From Bolinopsis microptera (taxonomy: Eukaryota; Ctenophora; Tentaculata; Lobata; Bolinopsidae), in the NCBI RefSeq assembly GCF_026151205.1, contig NC_087077.1, positions 8,485,983-8,549,982 of the forward strand: DNA of 64,000 bases, read 5' to 3'. This document shows, piece after piece, positions 10,236 through 35,103 of this stretch. Each line of letters begins with the position of its first letter. The first letter of the stretch is position 1. The position numbers and the translations under genes are program-made. The notes under the pieces were generated by a model. It was not told the origin of the DNA. It saw only the letters and a program-made list of their open reading frames with translations, and ran no database searches.

Positions 10236-10680
10236 TAAGAAAGAATATTTGAAGTATAATTTGAGTGGCCAAACATAATGTATTAAAATTTTGATCAATC
10301 TAATCATTAATGAATCTTTGTTCGAAAAAAATGAACTTCGTTATTATTTTATTTGACGGATTCTTCGAATGAGTGATGACTGATGATAGTGAGTCATGAT
10401 ATCAAAAAGAATTACTTCAATCGGGCACTCAGGGACTGAGCTATAAGCTATAAGACCAGACGTTTGCACAAACTGATCTATGTACTGCACCATTGCCACC
10501 GCCCACCATGTATCACTATCAGTGACAGTATATGTGCATTGTGCGACTGCGTGCTCCTCCCACAATTCAAGATTTTATCGCTTTATCTGACAAAAATGGT
10601 GTGTCACCAAGCCTCAGAGGCACATATTAGGTGCGGTAAAAAGATCGAAATTATGCGGCACCGCACCCGACTATGTCGGT
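10236..10680 (+). repeat. Dispersed repeat 'A', left copy
   Basis: About 445 bp nearly identical, with small indels, to 34,669-35,103 in the same orientation. A shorter related piece lies at 59,486-59,590. It carries GTGCGGTA and TGCGGCACCGCACCC motifs near its right end and has no coding potential. The two long copies bracket the giant inverted repeat. Confidence 0.85.
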
Positions 10681-10896
10681 GGTGTGCCCACCTACGAGTG
10701 GTATTGAAACGTAGCGCGCCTGAAACGTAGCGCGCCTGAAACGTAGCGCGCCTGAAAGCATGACAATGTCAGCCGCGCCGTAAGCTTTCATTAGGTTTTA
10801 GGTATCGCGTCCGCGGCAAACAGAAGATAAATCGGAAATTGTGGAACCAGATGATACGGTTTTTGAGGCATTTTGATACGGTCATTTTAGTCTGTT

Positions 10897-10900
10897 AAAG
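10897..10900. repeat. Target-site duplication AAAG, left
   Basis: The AAAG next to the left terminus is repeated at 19,596-19,599 next to the right terminus. It occurs once in the uninterrupted homologous site at 34,451-34,465 (GTCTGTTAAAGGGGC on the minus strand). The duplication is 4 bp as read; a 5-bp one would need a base lost on one side. Confidence 0.75.
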
Positions 10901-10913
10901 CACAGTGGAAAAT
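10901..10913 (+). repeat. Left terminal inverted repeat CACAGTGGAAAAT
   Basis: Perfect reverse complement of 19,583-19,595. The first seven bases match the RSS heptamer consensus. Confidence 0.9.
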
Positions 10914-10928
10914 GTTGGCCATTTCGCA

Positions 10929-10943
10929 GATTTTATTTTTGCA
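10929..10943 (+). promoter_or_regulatory. Conserved subterminal block, left (GATTTTATTTTTGCA)
   Basis: A 15-bp block with one mismatch to its partner at 19,563-19,577. It starts 21 bp inside the heptamer here but 11 bp inside it at the other end. By analogy to the RSS nonamer it may be a second transposase-binding element; that role is inference. Confidence 0.6.
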
Positions 10944-11122
10944 GCGATAATCGCACTCCCTCGCGATTATCGCGCGATAATCGACTCCTTGTGCGATTAT
11001 CGCCTCATTTTGCGATTATCGCGCGGTTATCGCCTCATTTTGCGATTATCGCCCCCCCTTGTGCGATAATCGCCTCATTATGCGATTATCGTGCGATTGT
11101 CGCCTCAATTTGCGATTATCGC
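10943..11122 (+). repeat. Left subterminal array of GCGATWATCGC motifs
   Basis: At least ten copies of GCGATTATCGC / GCGATAATCGC, separated by short CTCATTTT-like spacers. The motif is its own reverse complement apart from the central A/T. The same motif clusters at the right end. Such subterminal arrays are usual transposase-binding sites in EnSpm-like elements; here that is inferred. Confidence 0.85.
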
Positions 11123-12634
11123 AGTATATAACGAGAACCTAGCTGCCACATCTACAGATCTACTGGAGCCATTTCAGATTTTCAGTGGTAACATAAGTTT
11201 ATAATTAAAGTTAAAAGATTAACAGCAGTCGAATATTTAGAGTTGACAAATTGACAAAATGCTGCGTTGACAAAATGGCTACGTCAAATGATCAAATAGT
11301 TACTCTATATGATTCAATTGTAAGCCCACATAATTTAATTTTGGTCAACGTTGATTAGCGGGTTTTCATCTTTAAGTTAATATATGATTCATCTCATGTT
11401 CGTTGACTAATTTACCTATTTCTAGCTAGAATCCAGAATTCTTCCAAAATATCGAGAGCTCAGATTAGACTGAGAGGGGACTTTTTGTTGTGACTTCCCT
11501 AGTCACCGCTTATTGTGCGGCCGGGCGCGTCATGCCCGAACCTCGACAGCCATCATCCCGAACCGTTTATATTATCTGACAGCCGCTTTCAAATGTGTTT
11601 AACTTAACGATTAGATTTATATTTTTAGAATACTTTTCCGTTAGGCTTATAGCATGTGATCACCTCTAGGGCTCAGGTTACCATTTTGACAGTTAATTCA
11701 ATGCTCATAGTATGTCCTGGCCTTATCGTTTAACTTAGATCTGATTGCTTGTGACGAGATGATGTATTTCGTTTGTCTCTATCCATCCCGGTTACGAGGC
11801 CTATCGAGCTGGAACTGTTACTTAAGGGTGCCCCAGTGAGGCACACTTTATATATATAATAATGATAACATATACACTAATTTGATCCATCGGATATTAA
11901 TATTCACGTCTAAGTATTACTGCTATGAGTATGACATAGTGTATTCCTGCTCGCATCAGAGTTATTTCCGATGTCATCCCAATTCAGTTATCTAAGGTCT
12001 AATTTTTACCGGAGAAATTGTCAGCTCAATCGTTATCTTCGATTCAAGTGATTCCTTGCGCTCAAAATTGTCCCGCACTCGTCAAATTACATCCTCTGAG
12101 AATTATGGCGAAGTGGACAAAATTGAATCACCCTCGCGCGGCGACAAAAACTTGCGTGATGCGCGGTTTCAGTCGCAGTCACTACTATAACGAAAAAATT
12201 TTAATGGCAAAACATAAGCGGCGTTTTACATAATATGTGGCGAATATCATTATTGATCAAGTAGAAAATATGAACAGAGGGTGAAGCATCACCAAATTAA
12301 CAATCTTTCAATTTTAGGCATATAGCAGATTGTCCCAAACACTAAATCCATCATGATTGACCCATTTCAGTCACACAGCTTGGATTTCACTTTCAACAGG
12401 TATTTCCGTGTTGCTAGCTCGCACTTTTTCACAACTCGGTCTTCGTCATTACGAACATGGTCTGAAAATTTATGTTGCTTACATTTCTGTATTAAAGTGG
12501 TGGTCGTCCACATATTATGTACTCCCCCTCACCTTCGATGGTTAAGTAATATATGAACGACCCCTTACACACTACTATTCAACGTGTGGAAATCAAAATT
12601 TGATCTCAAACTCAATTAATTCTAAAAGCCCAAG
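11123..12634. other. Transposon interior downstream of transposase stop
   Basis: No second gene seen. Short ORFs (for example 12,018-12,233 plus) lack motifs. The transposase 3' UTR and terminator should lie at the right edge of this stretch, read leftwards. Confidence 0.5.
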
Positions 12635-15600
12635 TTATTTCTTACTTGTCATGTGTTCGTGATTCTTAAAAAGGGAGTGAGTACTCTCACCACCTTGCTC
12701 ATTGAAAGATCCAGAAAACATCCCCCAGAGCTGTATCTGCTCCAAAAAGTGGTCTTCAAGGAGATGTATCTGGTGGAGGTGGTGTTGAAATGATGTTGCA
12801 ATTTTAAGAGTTCGGTTGGGCCGGAGTTTCTTATAAATATGTCATGAAAATAACTTTCTTCCAGGCTATTTAGGGGTTGGAGACAACAGGTAAAGCTATA
12901 AGAGATAACAACAATACCTTCACCGATGTGGACTGACCAAACTTTCGGTACTCTGCCAAGAAGAGGTCCCTGGCCTTGACAAGAGTTTCGATCTCACGGG
13001 GACTCTTCACTTTCCCACTTTTGCCACCGAGAACTAAGAGATCTCTATACGAGGACTTAATGCGATCCAGTGCAAGGAGCCGTTGCTGAAAGTGCAGCTT
13101 GTCCTGTGGTCTTATCTTCCTGTCAACACAGAATCGGTCAGTCACAGAAGCTCGTTATCAATACAGAATTTTAGCCTTCAATCACAAGTAAAAAGTGGTA
13201 GTTATTTCACTATAAACGACAACCATTAGTAACATGAGTTAAATCGCACTGATCTCACAGAACTTACTCGTTTTTATAGAAGTGGTCTGTCCAAAATTGA
13301 GTGTGATTGGCTTTAACCAAATATCCTGCTCTCACGCCGGTCAGGGACACACCATGGTATGCCTCAGGAGTGACATTGATGCCCCTCAAATATTGCTCAT
13401 ACTTCGAGGAAAGGGGCCCACTGTTGCACTTCGAGGCCACACGGTTACCTAAAATGTACAGTGCCACACTTATTTTCTTCAACTCATTATATATCAGTTT
13501 GCAAAGCCTCCAATTTTTCAATAATGAAGTGATACATTCATCGATGAATCTACATTACCTTGTTCGATGCGCAGAATCATGGCTCCAAAGTCTGTCGTAC
13601 TGCTGTAGCTGTTGGGAAGAAACCCGTCTGCCACATTGCAAGCGAGTACAAAGTCTATCTCCTCGCACAGTTTACCGTACTCTGTCCACAGAAAAGTCCC
13701 GACTTTGATGTTCTAAAGGAAGTATCAAGAGTCATGACAATCAGTCAAATAATTCTAGTACCTAGTTCTATTTGCCACATATCAGGAACAGCATGAGCGG
13801 TGTTCGAATAAAAAACTGTGAGCTTCGATCACTTACTATGTGCAAGAACGGAACAGCGACCCAGTTTATGAGATAATCAGAATCCTCCCCGAAACAGTCT
13901 GTGATGGGTCGTGAAGCAACATTCATAAACTGGGCTTGGGATCTCGGGTTACACTGAGTCATTCTGATGTGGAAAAACTCGATACTAACAGTTTACAGAA
14001 ATGGTATACATCTATCGAAATACATACATGGTATACAATATACATCGAGATAAATGTTTGTACTTTGTGAAATGAAGGAGCTGCAATCAGCGAGTTAATG
14101 ACTGGTATTATAAGTTTATAAGTACCTCATATTAGCATCAAAGTTCTGCATAATTCCCGCAAAAGTTCGGGGCTTGCAGAGAGCTCTCTGGCTTCTGGGT
14201 ACTTGCATCAGGTCTTTATGTACCTCGCACAGTGGACAGGGGAACGTCCCATTGCTGCCCATACCCAGCATAGCCCACAGTGCCTTTGTGTCTGCACAGA
14301 GAATCATCTTCACATGTGCTCCACAGAAGACAAAGTTCTTGAGCTGTGGTAGGTCCCGGTTAACCACCTGTAATGTTATCTGTCTCATGCCTGTCCAGTT
14401 TTTAAAGTGTAAGCTGTTAATACAAATAAGCTCAAGTTGAAGTCTAGATTTCATGAAGAAATACCTTAAATATGACCTCCATGTTCCTGCGATGGTCCGG
14501 AGCTTCGGTGTACACCAGCATTGGGTGGGCATACGAGCTGTTACACGAAGGCTGGTTTAGCACATTGACTGCCACTTTAGTGGAGCTCGTGTCTGCGTCT
14601 ACAAACAGCTTAACATGTATAGTTTTGTCAGTTCCCACATCTAACTGGCCTGGAATATATAGAATTCAGCTGGCTGTTAATGAACTATGTGATAAAAACC
14701 GCTAAAAGAACTGCCCACCTTGACCTATTTAAATCAAATTAATTTTTTGTAAACAGCTCTATAATCTCTAGAAATTTGAAATACCGGTATTCTTCAAGGT
14801 TATAAGTGTTTTGGTTAGCAGTTCCTGTCCATCACAGTAGGCTACTGGGGTACGTCTTGCTAACAGCTCACCACTTTTAGTTTCATTTTTATCATGTGCT
14901 GCAGCTTTATGGGAAAGAGAAACCATTGCACTCATATAGTTCACCTTAAAACATGAATGATGTTAATTTTTGATGTACAATATATTCTATATTTCAAAAT
15001 CTGGGTTGTGCTATGCTATATGCTAGTACGCCATGACACCAAAATGATATATAATTGGTTTTGAGTTCAACTGAGCACTCACGGTGTATAATTCTTCCAT
15101 TGACTTGATTTCCTTCTCTGATTCCATTTTTATATCATATTTTTTTAGCAGTGGCCGCAGGTTGTTTCGTACATTGGCTGTCCCCGTGTTAGCTAAAAAT
15201 TGAGTCAGCATTTAATTTATTGCGATGAAATCTATTGCACACTAAGAATTAACTTTTCCACCCGCTAAGTTGTAATGATAATGACAATTTGTATCGTTCT
15301 TAACAACTTACATTCAGCTTTGAACATAGCAACATGAAGAGCATCAATTCGTTTCTTACAGTCAACGCCAGCCAACGCCTGTACATACTCCCGCTGCTCT
15401 TTAGAGAGTGATGTTAACTCCGCAGTTCGGATCCGTTTGGTCACTGATTCGATATCAGAGTCATTAGATTTTGAACAGCTTGACTCAGCCTGCAAATATT
15501 CATGTTGATTGAACTAAATTGCCTGTAGGGATTCGTTCAGTTTCAGTATGGCTATGATGGCAAACTGCGGAAGTGATATACAGTTTAACTTATTACCGAT

Positions 15601-18112
15601 AACGTTATTCAGGATACCTGGCTCTCTACTATATCCTTGAAGACATGAGTGTGCTTCCTTTTAACACTGTCAGCAGGAGTTTTTATTTCCTTGTGCGGCT
15701 TAATGATAGTGGTGATGAGGAGGGGTTTTCCCTGTGAACCCTTCACCTCAAAGGTTGCTCCCTCTTCAAAGCACTTATCTAGTAACGACCTGCAGGATTA
15801 CACGGATGATCACCTTCAGATGTTTAATATTCACAAGTTCAGCTCTTAAATATCCTTTTAAAGTGCTACACTCAACCCACTCTGATCCTACTCAAGTTAC
15901 GACTGATGATGTTTTATAGTCAAAGATGCAGACAGCCTGTGTCTTATTAGTAAATTACCTCAGCACGTGGTGAAAAAGTTTGTCTCCCGGATCGGTATGT
16001 TTGATAAAATCAGCCAACAGTGTTTTCTTCATGTGACCGAATGAGAGCAGATGTTCCTTTACCGTACGGTCGGACAATTCATTCTCTTGTTGACAGAGAA
16101 CACACGGGCAAAGCATTTTGTTACTATAATGTCCGTGAAGGTTAAGTTCTTGAGGCTAAACTTTACTTGAAAACATTTCAAATGTTGGGATGTGATAATT
16201 GATGAAATATCGAGAGAGGGGGAAGGGTGAAAAGAAAGCGAGCAAAAAGAATTAAAGAATTATTAGTATAAATCAAGAGGCTTTCATATGAACATATTGG
16301 CACGGGTGTAGAGTTGAGCCTGTACGGAACCTAGTAGTTTCAGATCCTTGTTTAACTTGCCGTACAGCAAGGTCATTCACTACTTTAGCCCTGGCGAGGC
16401 ACATAGCTCACTCTACAACTCCGTGTCAAATGTTTCATATATACCAGCCAAGTTCACAAGATATATCCTTGTGTTTGAGAAGAGCTCGTTAGAACTGCTT
16501 CTTTTCCCTTCAGTATCCCACAGTCTATCAAAATTAGTGTCACAAAATTGGTATCATAAAATTAGTTAATAAATTAGTATCACAAATAGAGTTAATGAAT
16601 TAGTGTCACAAAAAAAAGTTAGTATCACGGAACAAACATCACATAATTTTTCAAAAATTAATAATAAATTCAGTGTATTTACAAGTTTTATAGTTAAACT
16701 GAACCTCCCCAACGCTGTCGGAAAATCTCAGTCGCAGTGAGCTTCTTTTGAGAGGCCTTTTTTTTCCTCTCAGCAGCCATGCGGACTCTGGCTTCTATGA
16801 CAGATTCGGGCCCCCAGTTGTCCGCACTGATACTGAAATTAGAATGAGTGAGGCAGGGACAGGGAGGGAGGGCCAGGGAGGGAGGGCCAGGGAGGGAGAG
16901 CCAGGGAGGGAGGGCCAGGGAGGGAGAGCCAGGGAGGGAGAGCCAGGGAGGGAGGGCCAGGGAGGGAGAGCCAGGAGGGGGGTTCACTGCCTAATACCTG
17001 GATGCTGCTGAATTAATCCGTGATCGTGGTTGCACAGCACAGACTGGTGTACCGTGACTGGAACGGGACGGTCTGAAATAAATATGGTGTTAAGATTTCA
17101 TCACAAATGATATAACGCATCGCCAATCTTCATAAGAGTCCTTTCTTATCAATAAAATAACTAGTTGACTTACCAAAACACCACATACATTAACTCATTT
17201 ACTTTTATGGCTTAAAAATTTACCCTGGCCCATTTGAACTGACGGAGGGAGTTCGCGAGCGAGAGCGGATGGGGTCAGGGGTTCTGATCAGGATACTGCT
17301 GCAATATTTAGATGTGTTATATATCAGTTTTAAATTTGACTAAATATTGTTAGCCTGGGTACAAACATATTACATAACCCTGGCAATAACATTACAATGG
17401 AATTAAACTGCATACTAAATGACGATTTTCAACCATTTCAAAAACATTGGACACCGGGTCATATTTATTCTGCTATGCTACCTGACGGGTGCTGGGGTCG
17501 GAGAGGGTGCTTGGTGGAGGAGGAGATTGGTCCTCATCTCCGCAATTTCCGCCGCCTTTTCGTCCAGGACATGCCGCATGGCATTGGTCACACAATCCTG
17601 AATATCACTATTTTAACAGCTTTGTTTCAACAGGGATTCAGTGGATCTCATATCATGACAGATGAAATTTGATTGTTCATATGTGATACAGGTGCAGCTT
17701 ACCTTGCAGTGCAATGCGTGCAGTGGATCTGTCTGGGTACCAGCAGCAGTAACTGGGGGATGATCCGATGCTGCTCTCTGCTTCACTGCTGCCCCCTTCC
17801 TCTTGCATTTCTTGTCAACAGCATATTTCTTATATCGTAGCTGGACCTCCCTCACCCAATCAGAGTGTACGCCACTTTCTGAAATGTATTCATCTCCTTA
17901 ATGATTAAAGAACGATTTTTACAAAAGATATATCGATCAGAGTTGTCATTTGTTAAGCCATGATGTTTTGCGAGAACTTCTCTAGTTCCTAATAAGAAGT
18001 GAGGCAATGGCAAGTGATAAAAACTTATTTACCCTCGATATGGCAGAAACGTGCCACAGCTCGTTTTATTTCGGGAACCGCTTCGAGAGTAGGGAACCTG
18101 GCTCTCATGTGC
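12635..18112 (-). CDS. RAG1/Transib-like DDE transposase, 18 exons, one frame break
   Basis: Exons (minus): 18112-18033, 17878-17703, 17597-17482, 17283-17224, 17072-16998, 16832-16705, 16148-15959, 15789-15618, 15489-15312, 15192-15083, 14944-14785, 14649-14465, 14413-14126, 13963-13837, 13712-13559, 13448-13268, 13119-12924 and 12769-12635, about 900 codons. The order is a basic Ser/Arg-rich N-terminus, then a zinc finger near residue 265 (CPCVLC...HLLSFGH), then a DDE core. Its first Asp is in VKLFVDAD (about 499). The second is in CADTKALWAMLG (about 584), followed 18 residues on by CPLC. HLLEDH precedes FNEQGGE near 883, close to the stop. In mouse RAG1 the triad is D600, D708 and E962, with zinc ligands C727/C730/H937/H942. 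D708 is 19 residues before CxxC, the two His are spaced x4, and Glu lies in an NExG context; all of this is mirrored here. All exon phases fit except 14465/14413, which is off by one base: an error or a dead copy. The start is uncertain: either Met in the first exon listed or MASAGDVG at 18,370-18,346, whose phase does not fit. The acceptor at 16,148 is weak. Confidence 0.8.
16851..16977. repeat. 15-bp G-rich minisatellite in transposase intron
   Basis: About eight copies of CCAGGGAGGGAGRGC in the intron between exons 16998 and 16832. The plus strand is rich in GGG runs and could fold as G-quadruplexes. Confidence 0.9.
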
Positions 18113-18127
18113 CTGAAGAGTAAAATT

Positions 18128-18153
18128 TGGGGGGGGGGGGGGGGGGGGGGGGG
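18128..18153 (+). repeat. Poly(G) tract
   Basis: A run of about 26 G immediately upstream (in transcript sense) of the first confident transposase exon. It is followed by TATTAAAGTATA direct and inverted repeats to 18,235. Confidence 0.9.
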
Positions 18154-18235
18154 CCAACCATATTAAAGTATATTAAAGTATATCCCCGGGTCAAAATCGG
18201 AAAAAATCCTACATTTTAATATACTTTAATATACC

Positions 18236-19397
18236 TACAATTAGAAGATTTATATAATTTCACTTACAACTCGTGCAGATTGCAGGTCGAGTCAGCAAAA
18301 ATGTAGGTAAGAGGAAACAAACAAGTTCGATGTATAATAACTTACAACCAACATCTCCTGCGGAAGCCATCGGAACCAAGTGGTCTTAACTGTCGTGTTA
18401 CAGTTAACCCTGCGAACATTTCTGTCCTGCTTCCACTCATGTTCTCACTAATGTGATAATCGATATGAACGTGCTTAATTTCGTTCTTTATAACAACAAA
18501 TGCAATCATTTAATTCGATCGAGCTGTCAAGCAGATTACGGTATTAGGTGAATAGTGTGGCCATTGGTAACTACAATAGACAAGTCACTTGGTGACATGA
18601 TTACCGCACGTGTGTAAGTTGTAACATCTTATACACTCTTACAGAGATATATCTATATTCGATCCAAGCACTCTCACTTTTGAAAACTGAAGTCGAAGAA
18701 AATATTCTGATCCAGGTCACACTAAGAGGTACAAATCATAACAAGTAAAGTTGGCTGGTAACTAAGCGCTAAGTGAGCGCCCTAGTAGCGCTCGATTCAT
18801 AATTTGATTTTCGTATAGTTCAAATCCAACAAAAGTGCGCGGCTCACCGCGCGTGTCAAACTTGAAATGCAGTAATGAACTCCGTGTACTATTTGAATAT
18901 AATATTGATATAATTGCCATCGGCAGACAGAATGAACAATATGTATTGATTCAGATTCTTATTCATGTATAAGATTTATTTCCATAACGGAATTATGAGA
19001 TAATTTTCGAATTACAAATTGAATAGAAGTTTATGTTTATGGTTTCGGGTTTGTCGTAGGGGCCCAGGGGTCATTCGTAAATAGCGTTTGCGTCCGTTAA
19101 ACAGGGGGAAGAGGAATGAAATTGGAAATATGAAATGTTGATGCTTGTGTTTACTTTCGCCTTTGAAGGTTATAGTTTGATTGTAAAATGTAATTCTGAG
19201 GCCAGGGTCAAACTCAAAATGAAAATGCAGGATCCGCTGCGCGCGGCGTCAGGCACAAGGTTTAATATATATATCAAATATAATATTTTTTATTGCTGTT
19301 CAACCATAATTTTGATTCAGTGCAGTGTTGAATGTTGATGCAGTATATGACTCACAGTATGTCAAAATTAACTCATCATTTCACTATTGCATTATCA
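18236..19397. other. Transposon 5' region of the transposase gene
   Basis: Must hold the promoter and any 5' UTR. A possible first exon (MASAGDVG, 18,370-18,346, donor GTAAGT) lies here, but its reading phase is one base off the next exon. A GTGCGCGGCTCACCGCGCG stretch at 18,836-18,854 resembles the element end at 6,680/41,655. Confidence 0.4.
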
Positions 19398-19560
19398 TCG
19401 CAGATTTTAGCGATTATCACTATTTAATGGCGATTATCGTGCATTTAGCGATAATCGCCAATGTTAGGCGATAATCGTGCGCAATAATCGCATGTTAGGC
19501 GATAAACACGCGATAATCGCATATTGGGCGATAAACACGCGATAATTGCATTATCGCTTT
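19398..19560 (-). repeat. Right subterminal array of GCGATWATCGC motifs
   Basis: Repeats of GCGATTATCGC and the degenerate GCGATAAACACGCGATAATCGC, mirroring 10,943-11,122. Confidence 0.85.
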
Positions 19561-19562
19561 TA

Positions 19563-19577
19563 TGCAAGAATAAAATC
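19563..19577 (-). promoter_or_regulatory. Conserved subterminal block, right (GATTTTATTCTTGCA on minus)
   Basis: Partner of 10,929-10,943. Only 11 bp separate it from the heptamer at 19,589-19,595. Confidence 0.6.
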
Positions 19578-19582
19578 CAGAT

Positions 19583-19595
19583 ATTTTCCACTGTG
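19583..19595 (-). repeat. Right terminal inverted repeat
   Basis: ATTTTCCACTGTG, the exact reverse complement of 10,901-10,913; AAAG follows at 19,596-19,599. Confidence 0.9.
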
Positions 19596-19599
19596 AAAG

Positions 19600-21097
19600 G
19601 GGCTGCAGAGTGCTGCAGATGATTGTACAGTGTAGGGGGATGTGTTTACTAACTATTTTGACGTCAAAATTGTCGCCAGAGGCTCCCTGAGTCATGGAAT
19701 GAACGGAATGAACAAAAATGAATTTTTTTTCTAAAACTCGTCGGATGGCCCCAAAACAGGTCGGAATCGTTTGGTATTGACCCTAATAGTGTTCCTACGA
19801 AGTTTGGTGGCCCTAGCACTCCCAGAACACCCATTATACCCTTGGCTGGATTCAAGAATTTAGAACCAGTTGAGCAGATAAAACGGATTTTGAGAAATTT
19901 TGTCTGCTTGTGTTGTTGCAGAGAGTTGAATTTGGTTCAACAGTATTCAAACAAGATGTGTTCCAACTTAGTTTTGTAGCCCTACCATTTTCAGCCTTAC
20001 CATTTTCAGAACGTCCAATAGAATCCGGTTCCATTTTCTTCCAAGAAGCCGTAGACAAGGTTGTTTGAATACAACTCTGGTAATACAACTTTTTACTTGG
20101 ATGGATTTCAATAATTAAAGAGAGCAGAGTTTTAAAAATTTGCCAGTATTTGGCACAATTTCTTTAGCTATTTCTTCGGACAGTTTTGATGCATTTACAG
20201 TGACTAACCACGCCTTTTGTTATATTTAACGGAACGTAAGATTGTGTATTCGTCTGAACCACCAGATATAATGACAACAAGATAAACGGTGACTGAAATA
20301 TGGCGAAAACTTGTTTAGCCCACAGCTATTGAAAATGTCGAGTTTACGAAGCTTGATGTCTAAATGATAACACAATTCTTTTAAGCAGATAAGATATTAA
20401 ATCTAATACATGAAAACATAGCACGGCATGATAATCAAATGAACATTATGTTAACCATCAGTCTTAGTTTGTTCGTTTTTATGTGATGTACAGCCTGCCA
20501 GCATCTTAAGATCATCATAGCAGTTCACGCAACATTGGTCGTCTGAACTGCTTGTCACTTGCGGAGGACATTTAAAAGACATCCGTAGTAGATGATATGT
20601 AGGGGGCCTGGTAGTGTGAACATAAGTCTTCGAAGGGACCATATGTGTGACAGAATCGCGTCGTGCACAATAGCAGAGGCCGCTTCGTTGATATCACGCT
20701 CTGAAACAAAAGTTGTTAGCGGTAAAAATGAAAACCATTCAAGTTCTGGGGTTATGTAATAGAAAGAAACAATGCATGAGATCTAGAATCAGGCCTCTAT
20801 CAGAAGTCAAATATCAAATCTCACAGAATTGGTAATCATTTCGCTCCTGAAATTGAAACGAGATCTTGTCGCCGATTATAATTATTAGGAGGTCACGAAA
20901 AGCAGCTTATTGGGGTCCATGACTGGAGTACACACAAACATGGAATGATTTCAGAATAACCCCAATGTTGGGATTCACTCAACACAGTAGGGTAAGCGTG
21001 CAAAAATGATTATAAAATATCAGCACCGAGATAATATAAGTTGTAAATTAAACTTAAAGGACTGTGTAAATATATTCAATGTGAATCGTTTAAATTA
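19600..21097. other. Left-arm DNA without a gene
   Basis: Mirrored at about 33,000-34,450 in the right arm. Short ORFs are not preserved between the arms, so none is believed. Confidence 0.55.
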
Positions 21098-32884: not shown

Positions 32885-34668
32885 ATTATTTAAGACGATC
32901 ACATGTGTTATATTTTGGCTGCAGTCCGTTAAGTTTAATTACATCTCTATTATTATCTCGGTGTGATATTTATAATCATTTCGACAGGCTGTACCTCGGT
33001 GGGTTGAGGTGAGGTCAATACTTTGGGGGTTTAGTTTCTTGAAATCAGACTTCGATGTTGTGTTACTCCAGTCATGGGTTCCCAAGTAAGCTGCTTTTCG
33101 TGACATCCTACAATATTATAATCGGCGACAATATCTCGTTTCATTTCATGAATCGAAATGTTTACCAATTCGTGTGATATTTGATATTTGATTCTGATAG
33201 AGGATCCTGATTCTATATCATAGCTTGTTTTGTCTATTACATACCCCAAACTTGAAGGTTTCTTAGGTTTTTACAGTTAACAACTCGTGTTTTGTTTCAG
33301 GAGCGTGGTGATATCAACGAAGCGGCCTCTCTGCCTTTTGTGACGGACGCGATTCTGTCACATATGGTCCTTCGAAGACTTATGTTCACATACCAGGCCC
33401 CTATAACATCTACTACGGATGTCTTTTAAATGTCCTCCGCAAGTGACAAGCAGTTCAGACGACCAATGTGGCGTGAACTGTATGTGATCTTAAGATGCTG
33501 GCTGGTGTACAGTCACATAAAAAGAAAAATAAGATGATGGTTAAATAATGTTCATTTGATTATCATGCGTGCTATGTTTTATGTATTAGAATTTATTCTT
33601 ATTGCTTAAAAGGAATTGTGTATCATTTTGACATCAAGCTACGTAAACTCGAATTTTCATTAGTGTGGGCTGCTAAACAAGTTTTCGCATTATTTTCGTC
33701 AGTTTTCTTGTTGTCATTATATTGGTGGTTCCCCAGAAAACGAATACACAATCTTACGATCGTTATAAATTAACAAAAGGCTCCATGTCCTGGTCAGTGA
33801 GAACCCTGTTCTATGTCATCAAAACTGTCCGGCAGAAAATCTTGCACCGCATAAAGAATTTGTGCAAAATACTGCGCAAATTTTTAAAACCTGCTACCCT
33901 CATCTCTAACTTATCTGCACATCTACTACACTACATACCCATCTGTCGCGAACATACACAGAGTGCTATTACCATCACTCTACCCCAATCATCCTAGGTA
34001 CTAGCGCTACCCTGGATCGAATATGGAATCGGATTTCTATTTGGCGTTTCTGAAACTGTAAGGCTCCCCCAAAATGGTGGCTACAAACTAGTTGGAACAC
34101 ATCTTGTTTGAATACTGTTTGAACCAAATTCAACTCTCTGCCACAACACAAGCAGGACAAAAATTGTCAAAAATCCGTTTTATCTGCCTAACTGGTTCTA
34201 AATTCTTGACCAGCAAGGGTGTATAATGGGTGTTTCTGGGAGAGTGTAGGGCCACCAAACTTGTAGGAACTATAGGGTCAGTACCAAAGATTCCGACCTG
34301 TTTGGGGCCAGCCGAGGAAGTTTTAGAAAAAAAATTCATTTTTGTTCATTCCGTTTCATTCCATGATCAGGGAGCCTTGGGCGAACAATTTTGAGTCAAA
34401 ATAGTTAGTAAACACCTCCACTACATGTACAATCATATGCGAACTCGGCAGCCCCTTTAACAGACTAAATGACGTTTCTAATGCCTCAAAAGAAACCGTA
34501 TTATCTTGGTTCTCCAATTTCCGATTTATCTTCTGTTTGACGCGGACGCGTACCTGAAACCTAATGAAAGATTAGGCGCGGCAGACATTGTCATGCTTTC
34601 AGCCGCTCGCTACGGGTTTCCAGTTTCAGGGCGCTACGTTTCATTACCAGCGTAGGTGGGCCAACCAG

Positions 34669-35103
34669 TGTAAGAAAGAATATATGAAGTATAATTGAAG
34701 TGGCCAAACATAATGTATTAAAATTTTGTATCAATCTAATCATTAATGAATCTTTGTTCGGAAAAAAAAATGAACTTCGTTATTATTTTATTTGACGGAT
34801 TCGTCGAATGAGTGTGGACGATTGTAGGGGAGTTGATATCAAAAAGATTTACTCAATTCGGGACTCAGGGTCTGAGTATAAGGATAAGACCAGACGTTTG
34901 CACAAACTGATTATGTACTGCCCATTTGCACGCCCACCATGTATCACTATCAGTGAAAGTAAATGGCATTGTGCGGATGCGTGCTCCTCCACAATTCAAG
35001 ATTTTTTGCTTAATCTGACCAAAAAATGGTTGTGTCACCAAGCTCAGAGGCACAATATTAGGTGCGGTATAAAAGATCGAAATTATGCGGCACGCACCCG
35101 ACT
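34669..35103 (+). repeat. Dispersed repeat 'A', right copy
   Basis: Direct copy of 10,236-10,680; starts GTGTAAGAAAGAATATATGA and ends at CGGCACGCACCCGAC. Confidence 0.85.

Follow-up and report, generated by a model that had tools for sequence, protein, structure and literature searches.

A probable two-gene Chapaev-superfamily transposon with CACAGTG termini in the ctenophore Bolinopsis microptera

Does a transposon whose ends begin with CACAGTG, the heptamer of the V(D)J recombination signal sequence (RSS), belong with RAG1? The question is raised by an 8,695-bp element in a 64,000-nucleotide stretch of the Bolinopsis microptera genome (assembly GCF_026151205.1, 264.65 Mb; contig NC_087077.1; G000:C6:8485983-8549982), hereafter the window, within which feature positions are counted. 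A preliminary description presented the element as a complete RAG1-like transposon with a single 18-exon transposase. The analysis reported here identifies a complete DNA transposon that can be assigned with good confidence to the Chapaev superfamily (CMC) as a new, divergent, two-gene, cut-and-paste element that is recently active and, judged by its gene content, autonomous. The term RAG1-like is valid at the level of the clan only.

The proposed boundaries of the element proved exact. The 13-bp inverted repeat CACAGTGGAAAAT is found at both ends, AAAG adjoins each end on the outside, and an empty site within the same window, where a related repeat is uninterrupted at the insertion point, contains AAAG once and is identical to the flanks of the element in 343 of 397 alignment columns. 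As proposed in the preliminary description, the element thus moved as a unit. A search of the genome for other copies with the same ends, using the terminus CACAGTGGAAAATRT, yielded 40 exact matches, compared to none for the reversed control. These matches comprise 16 convergent pairs and 8 singles; in a check that covered the pairs and not the singles, an exact 4-bp duplication flanks 15 of the 16 pairs, the window copy included (chance probability, ∼1e-35). By their ends, the pairs were sorted into 9 copies of type A, the kind present in the window, and 7 copies of type B. Type A includes two full-length copies (that in the window and C6:17683528-17692221) and seven internal-deletion derivatives with differing break points. 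An alignment of the two full-length copies, 8,703 columns long, contains 2 substitutions and 17 gap columns; all 20 exons are identical.

Several other loci are related to these copies. A search of the genome with the transposase core gave at least 135 exon-level matches and recovered a close third subfamily (L100) as well as diverged relatives with 33 to 39% identity (L097, L098, and L099); for four diverged loci, no ends were found within the stretches examined. The only pair lacking a duplication, G000:C11:5192622-5200178, is perhaps rearranged. At G000:C6:17679872-17692221, a gap of 7 bp separates two copies, each flanked by a 4-bp duplication of its own (CAGA and ATAC). The element in the window is itself inserted in a host repeat, a related copy of which (34019-35103) lies ∼14 kb past the right end; the main pieces shared between this copy and the flanks (10301-10900 and 19596-20195) are 83 to 89% identical and of mixed direction, some in the same orientation and others inverted.

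Instead of the single 18-exon transposase, the minus strand of the element carries two genes, gene A with 7 exons and gene B with 13, which are covered by separate predicted proteins and are both present in type B; protein searches returned matches only to Bolinopsis proteins. A single 20-exon gene was rejected because P0002 and P0001 are separate predicted proteins. P0002 (LOC134817720; 240 residues) is identical to gene A over 231 residues, beyond which it diverges. P0001, the prediction for the window's own gene (LOC134816823, isoform X2), is gene B minus exons 7 and 8 (123 amino acids), which are skipped in frame, so that it lacks the second catalytic aspartate (D347) and the C(2)C motif discussed below; if real, this isoform would be catalytically dead. 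P0003 (LOC134814667) corresponds to residues 1 to 502 of the gene B product and stops before the H(4)H motif and the catalytic glutamate; it probably originates from the copy at G000:C5:1310610-1317238, probably a deletion derivative, and could act as an inhibitor. Jointly, P0001 and P0003 cover all 12 exon junctions of gene B.

Gene B was also compared with the type B copy L048. All 13 exons were found in L048, with 12 of 12 introns bounded by GT-AG and located in the same place and phase, and 519 of 693 aligned residues (75%) are identical. The nonsynonymous (dN) and synonymous (dS) distances estimated by the LWL85 method are 0.156 and 1.40, respectively (with NG86, dS is saturated), and the resulting dN/dS of ∼0.11 indicates that gene B of this second subfamily is under purifying selection. 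Gene A is also kept in type B, more weakly than gene B. In Pfam, P0002 had no match, and the gene A product of the type B copy had only a subthreshold match to DUF5538.

The assignment to Chapaev comes from the gene B protein together with the ends. The best Pfam match of this protein, below the cutoff in each case, is DUF1280 (PF06918), with E values of 1.4e-4 for type A, 1.4e-3 for type B, and 1.6e-3 for L097; DUF1280 is described as a family of Chapaev transposases that falls in one clade with RAG1 (PMC3985635). The hallmarks given for Chapaev are CAC...GTG termini, the C(2)C, LH, and H(4)H motifs, and target-site duplications of 3 to 4 bp (PMC4079192), and the element combines CAC...GTG termini and a 4-bp duplication with an Asp-Asp-Glu (DDE) transposase containing all three motifs. 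The 3-bp TWA duplication reported for Chapaev3 in the same source was not found in the 15 of 16 pairs, where the duplication is 4 bp. The N terminus of the protein resembles the Transpos_assoc zinc finger (E values of 2.9e-4 for type A, 0.028 for type B, and 3.2e-5 for L097). Elsewhere in the genome, the family search gave a sole DUF1280 match, at L066:4703-4927 (G000:C3:20135699-20135878), which scores 35.3 bits, above the cutoff, and contains one internal stop.

All the motifs noted in the preliminary description, VKLFVDAD, ADTK, CPLC, HLLEDH, and FNEQGG, are present in the gene B protein, and F.D.D, C.DTK, CP.C, P..H, LEDH, and EQGGE are common to types A and B, L097, and L098. The second catalytic aspartate, D347, aligns with that of Transib. 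For the catalytic glutamate, previously sought in FNEQGG, both E647 of that motif and E651 (GGES) are invariant in a five-sequence alignment (A3), and E651 is the more likely candidate because E962 of RAG1 falls on it. The spacing from the second aspartate to the first cysteine is 18 residues, as previously described, compared to 19 in mouse RAG1 and 15 in the ctenophore Transib-like protein L064; that from the second histidine to the glutamate is 21, compared to 20 and 22, respectively. The first aspartate was previously placed in FVDAD, and this residue, D277, is the preferred one of two candidates: F.D.D is kept in all four aligned families, at the position of the other candidate, D244, L097 shows no acidic residue when compared by eye, and the structure model has D277 within the first strand, with D244 immediately ahead of a helix. 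Conversely, hhalign with types A and B places D244 (CDGQE) on the first aspartate of Transib, larger hhalign and MAFFT alignments place FVDAD downstream of that residue in Transib and RAG1, and the distance from D244 to D347, 103 residues, is near the 108 of RAG1. Given that D277 is a preferred candidate, its distance to D347 (70 residues, compared to 102 in Transib and 108 in RAG1) was not used as an argument against a RAG or Transib assignment.

By profile alignment, the core of the gene B protein, a predicted RNase H-like DDE core with a C2/H2 insertion, is homologous to those of Transib and RAG1, and the protein belongs to the CMCT clan. A profile of types A and B, L097, and L098 aligned by hhalign with two ctenophore Transib-like proteins and mouse RAG1 scored 48.0 (probability, 77), compared to a maximum of 27.5 for 100 column-shuffled targets (mean, 16.1; standard deviation, 2.7). 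Restricting the profile to types A and B gave a score of 33.4, compared to a mean of 17.6 and a maximum of 26.9 for shuffled targets and 19.9 for the reversed target. By BLASTP, the strongest similarity to RAG1 in a three-sequence comparison reached an E value of 0.035. Searching PDB with the A3 profile (hmmsearch) returned nine distinct sequences at an E value of ≤10, all of them RAG1, and searching with type A alone or with types A and B gave no relative. The best fold matches of the structure model, itself weak, are HzTransib and RAG1, and one segment of this model is consistent with the proposed core; no CMC transposase is among the solved structures in the matches listed. In a tree of eight proteins, five Chapaev-like rows are split from Transib plus RAG1 with support of 100/100, under a long-branch warning and with no named Chapaev included.

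A number of results count against the Chapaev placement or against the homology. The DUF1280 matches are below the cutoff of 25 bits (22, 18.7, and 18.5), the fourth family, L098, has no Pfam match, and the place of the element within CMC is tentative. Chapaevs are reported to carry a Chapa domain (PMC4411706); none was recognized here, where no Chapa profile was used, nor were zf-RAG1 or RING found in Pfam at an E value of ≤10, and the N terminus resembles Transpos_assoc, itself below the cutoff, rather than Chapa. The profile of types A and B scored only 21.5 (probability, 0.5) against the two Transib proteins alone, and its core scored 26.2 (probability, 3.5) against RAG1 alone; the top RAG1 match of A3 in PDB had an E value of only 0.35. 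The structure model is mostly poor, with a mean predicted local distance difference test (pLDDT) score of 39 and ten-residue means above 60 only at residues 241 to 290 and 331 to 340 (mean, 34, for P0001 modeled alone), and Foldseek gave no match at an E value of ≤0.001.

Apart from the heptamer, no feature of the RSS was found. The nonamer, sought 12 or 23 bp away from the heptamer at the four ends of types A and B, reached 1 to 6 of 9 matches with no position common to all, and the 12/23 layout is absent. The subterminal regions contain arrays of a different motif, the palindrome CGATWATCG. It occurs 13 times in the element, with 9 occurrences in the first 221 bp and 4 in the last 165 bp, and is absent from the remaining 55 kb of the window; L048 has 8 occurrences, every one within 160 bp of its ends. 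These arrays are kept even though types A and B have only 13 to 18 bp in common at their termini, which suggests that they are binding sites.

The assignment of the element to the RAG-like (ProtoRAG/RAGL) or Transib transposons is very improbable, despite the RSS heptamer, the conserved order of the D, C2, H2, and E motifs, the profile and fold likeness described above, and, if D244 is the catalytic residue, a spacing of 103 residues, similar to those of Transib and RAG1. The 4-bp duplications already contradict it: the duplication of RAGL transposons is described as 5 bp, invariably in protostomes and almost always in deuterostomes, and these transposons carry RAG2L (PMC7204232). A RAG2-like gene would be convergent, whereas gene A and gene B share a strand in the element, and gene A matches neither kelch nor PHD; likewise, a screen of the plus strand within the element, covering its 20 open stretches that reach 60 amino acids or more, gave no match to kelch or PHD. 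The RAG1 Pfam profile (PF12940) has no match at an E value of ≤10 in types A and B, L097, or L098 (HMMER filters remove most matches above about 0.1), although L064 scores 2.7e-13 with it; the lack of a nonamer and, with its warning, the tree also stand against this assignment. The RAG1 cutoff was passed by two loci in the genome, neither of which is the element. Transib-like proteins of ctenophores have been published (PMC9435367); L064 (L064:1468-3183, G000:C2:19700416-19701534) is a separate Transib/RAG1-like transposase of 571 amino acids, free of stops, and L065 is a second such locus, in two open frames; inverted repeats near these loci gave no clear termini.

Membership in CACTA/EnSpm, Mirage, or another CMCT lineage, for example ESTA or Lanisha of fungi, is improbable. 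En/Spm elements have subterminal repeat arrays, which those of the element resemble, and more than one gene. The Transpos_assoc-like finger of types A and B and L097, below the cutoff in each, points the same way, and the C(2)C and H(3-4)H motifs are given as common to the whole CMCT clade, as defined in PMC12730594. Against such a lineage, Pfam gave no Transposase_21 or DUF1258 match at an E value of ≤10, matching DUF1280 instead, and the duplication is 4 bp, compared to 3 bp in EnSpm and TA in ESTA (PMC12730594). The idea of a domesticated, immobile host gene lying between chance repeats would account for the many introns, the host-style gene models P0001 to P0003, and the purifying selection on gene B; the many copies with matching termini and their own duplications, the deletion derivatives, the copy only 2 substitutions away, and the empty site refute it, leaving it a negligible probability. 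The features of the element are listed in Table 1.

Table 1. Coordinates of the transposon, its ends, genes, and candidate catalytic residues in the window
Feature	Position	Strand	Basis or remark
Complete transposon	10901..19595	none	Matching termini, duplication, empty site, genome copies
Left terminal inverted repeat, 13 bp	10901..10913	+	CACAGTGGAAAAT
Right terminal inverted repeat, 13 bp	19583..19595	-	CACAGTGGAAAAT
Target-site duplication AAAG, left copy	10897..10900	+	Single AAAG in empty site
Target-site duplication AAAG, right copy	19596..19599	+	Single AAAG in empty site
Paralogous empty site	34263..34643	-	Repeat copy uninterrupted at insertion point
Left subterminal array, 9 CGATWATCG	10945..11121	none	Motif count
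Right subterminal array, 4 CGATWATCG	19431..19519	none	Motif count
Gene A, 7 exons	16694..18440	-	251 amino acids; P0002 match; recurs in type B
Gene A exons	18440-18346, 18112-18033, 17878-17703, 17597-17482, 17298-17224, 17072-16998, 16832-16694	-	
Gene B (predicted transposase), 13 exons	12370..16116	-	695 amino acids; P0001 and P0003 matches; recurs in type B
Gene B exons 1-7	16116-15959, 15789-15618, 15489-15312, 15192-15083, 14944-14785, 14649-14465, 14367-14126	-	
Gene B exons 8-13	13963-13837, 13712-13559, 13448-13268, 13119-12918, 12769-12646, 12461-12370	-	
D277 codon, preferred candidate for first Asp (FVDAD)	14597..14599	-	Family conservation, model
D347 codon, predicted second catalytic Asp (CADTK)	14290..14292	-	Aligned with second Asp of Transib
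C365-x2-C368, C(2)C motif	14227..14238	-	
H625-x4-H630, H(4)H motif	12749..12766	-	
E651 codon, proposed catalytic Glu (GGES)	12686..12688	-	Meets RAG1 E962

Two introns of gene A contain G-rich sequence: intron 6 has a 14-bp tandem repeat (∼16860-16980), and intron 1 has a poly-G run (18129-18153), which the other full-length copy carries in a form shorter by 9 bp.

These features are compatible with the following scheme. The gene B product is a DDE transposase (proposed catalytic residues D277, D347, and E651) in which an RNase H-like core is predicted, a zinc-type C2/H2 motif is inserted, and the N terminus has a zinc finger resembling that of CACTA. It would most likely recognize the CGATWATCG palindromes along with the 13-bp termini that start with CACAGTG. 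Given the ends and the duplications, the cut would adjoin CAC, and joining of the ends to a staggered target would create the 4-bp duplications. Hairpins on the flanks, as in RAG and Transib, are a possible cutting chemistry. Imperfect repair of the donor gap off a sister copy could give rise to the internal-deletion derivatives, and gene A may encode an accessory protein that perhaps binds the ends or serves as a regulator.

The family offers a practical substrate for tests of Chapaev cutting and of a possible ancestral origin of RAG-like hairpin chemistry: its ends are exact, two copies have identical exons, an empty site is present, and a diverged sister is under selection. The presence of a second gene and the abundance of introns call for specialist explanation. 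A bolder reading, that the element represents a ctenophore-specific branch of CMC/Transib/RAG1 in which two genes, 20 exons, a Chapaev-type core, a CACTA-type finger, RSS-heptamer termini, palindromic arrays, and a required accessory protein are combined, seems rather unlikely; under it, if a flank-hairpin mechanism like that of RAG holds, a two-component design around the heptamer would predate, or have arisen apart from, RAG1-RAG2. The kind of element is already known. As far as open-access titles and abstracts show, the ctenophore family, with its two genes, 20 exons, complete ends, and near-identical copies, is new; no ctenophore Chapaev appears in the titles or abstracts that searches of the open-access PMC literature listed.

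Compared with known systems, the element shares with Chapaev the termini, the 4-bp duplication, the C(2)C, LH, and H(4)H motifs, and DUF1280 as the top Pfam match, that likeness being subthreshold. It differs in having two genes with 20 exons, whereas most Chapaev3 transposases are described as single-exon (PMC4079192), and a CACTA-like N-terminal finger in place of a recognized Chapa or RING part. With CACTA/EnSpm it has in common this finger and the C(2)C and H motifs, whereas the CACAGTG termini, the 4-bp duplication, the lack of a Transposase_21 match, and the 13 exons of gene B, compared to 1 to 6 in 64 plant transposases (PMC4158355), set it apart. Finally, like Transib, RAG1, and RAGL, it has termini that start with CAC and a DDE core with the same order of C2 and H2, a similar distance from H to E, and its best structural match among these proteins; unlike them, it has a 4-bp rather than a 5-bp duplication and neither a RAG1 Pfam match, a RAG2-like gene, nor a nonamer, and, if D277 is the first aspartate, a shorter distance to the second than in Transib and RAG1. 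The predicted enzyme of gene B is a distant cousin of RAG1, the shuffler of antibody genes, in an element that is not a RAG transposon.

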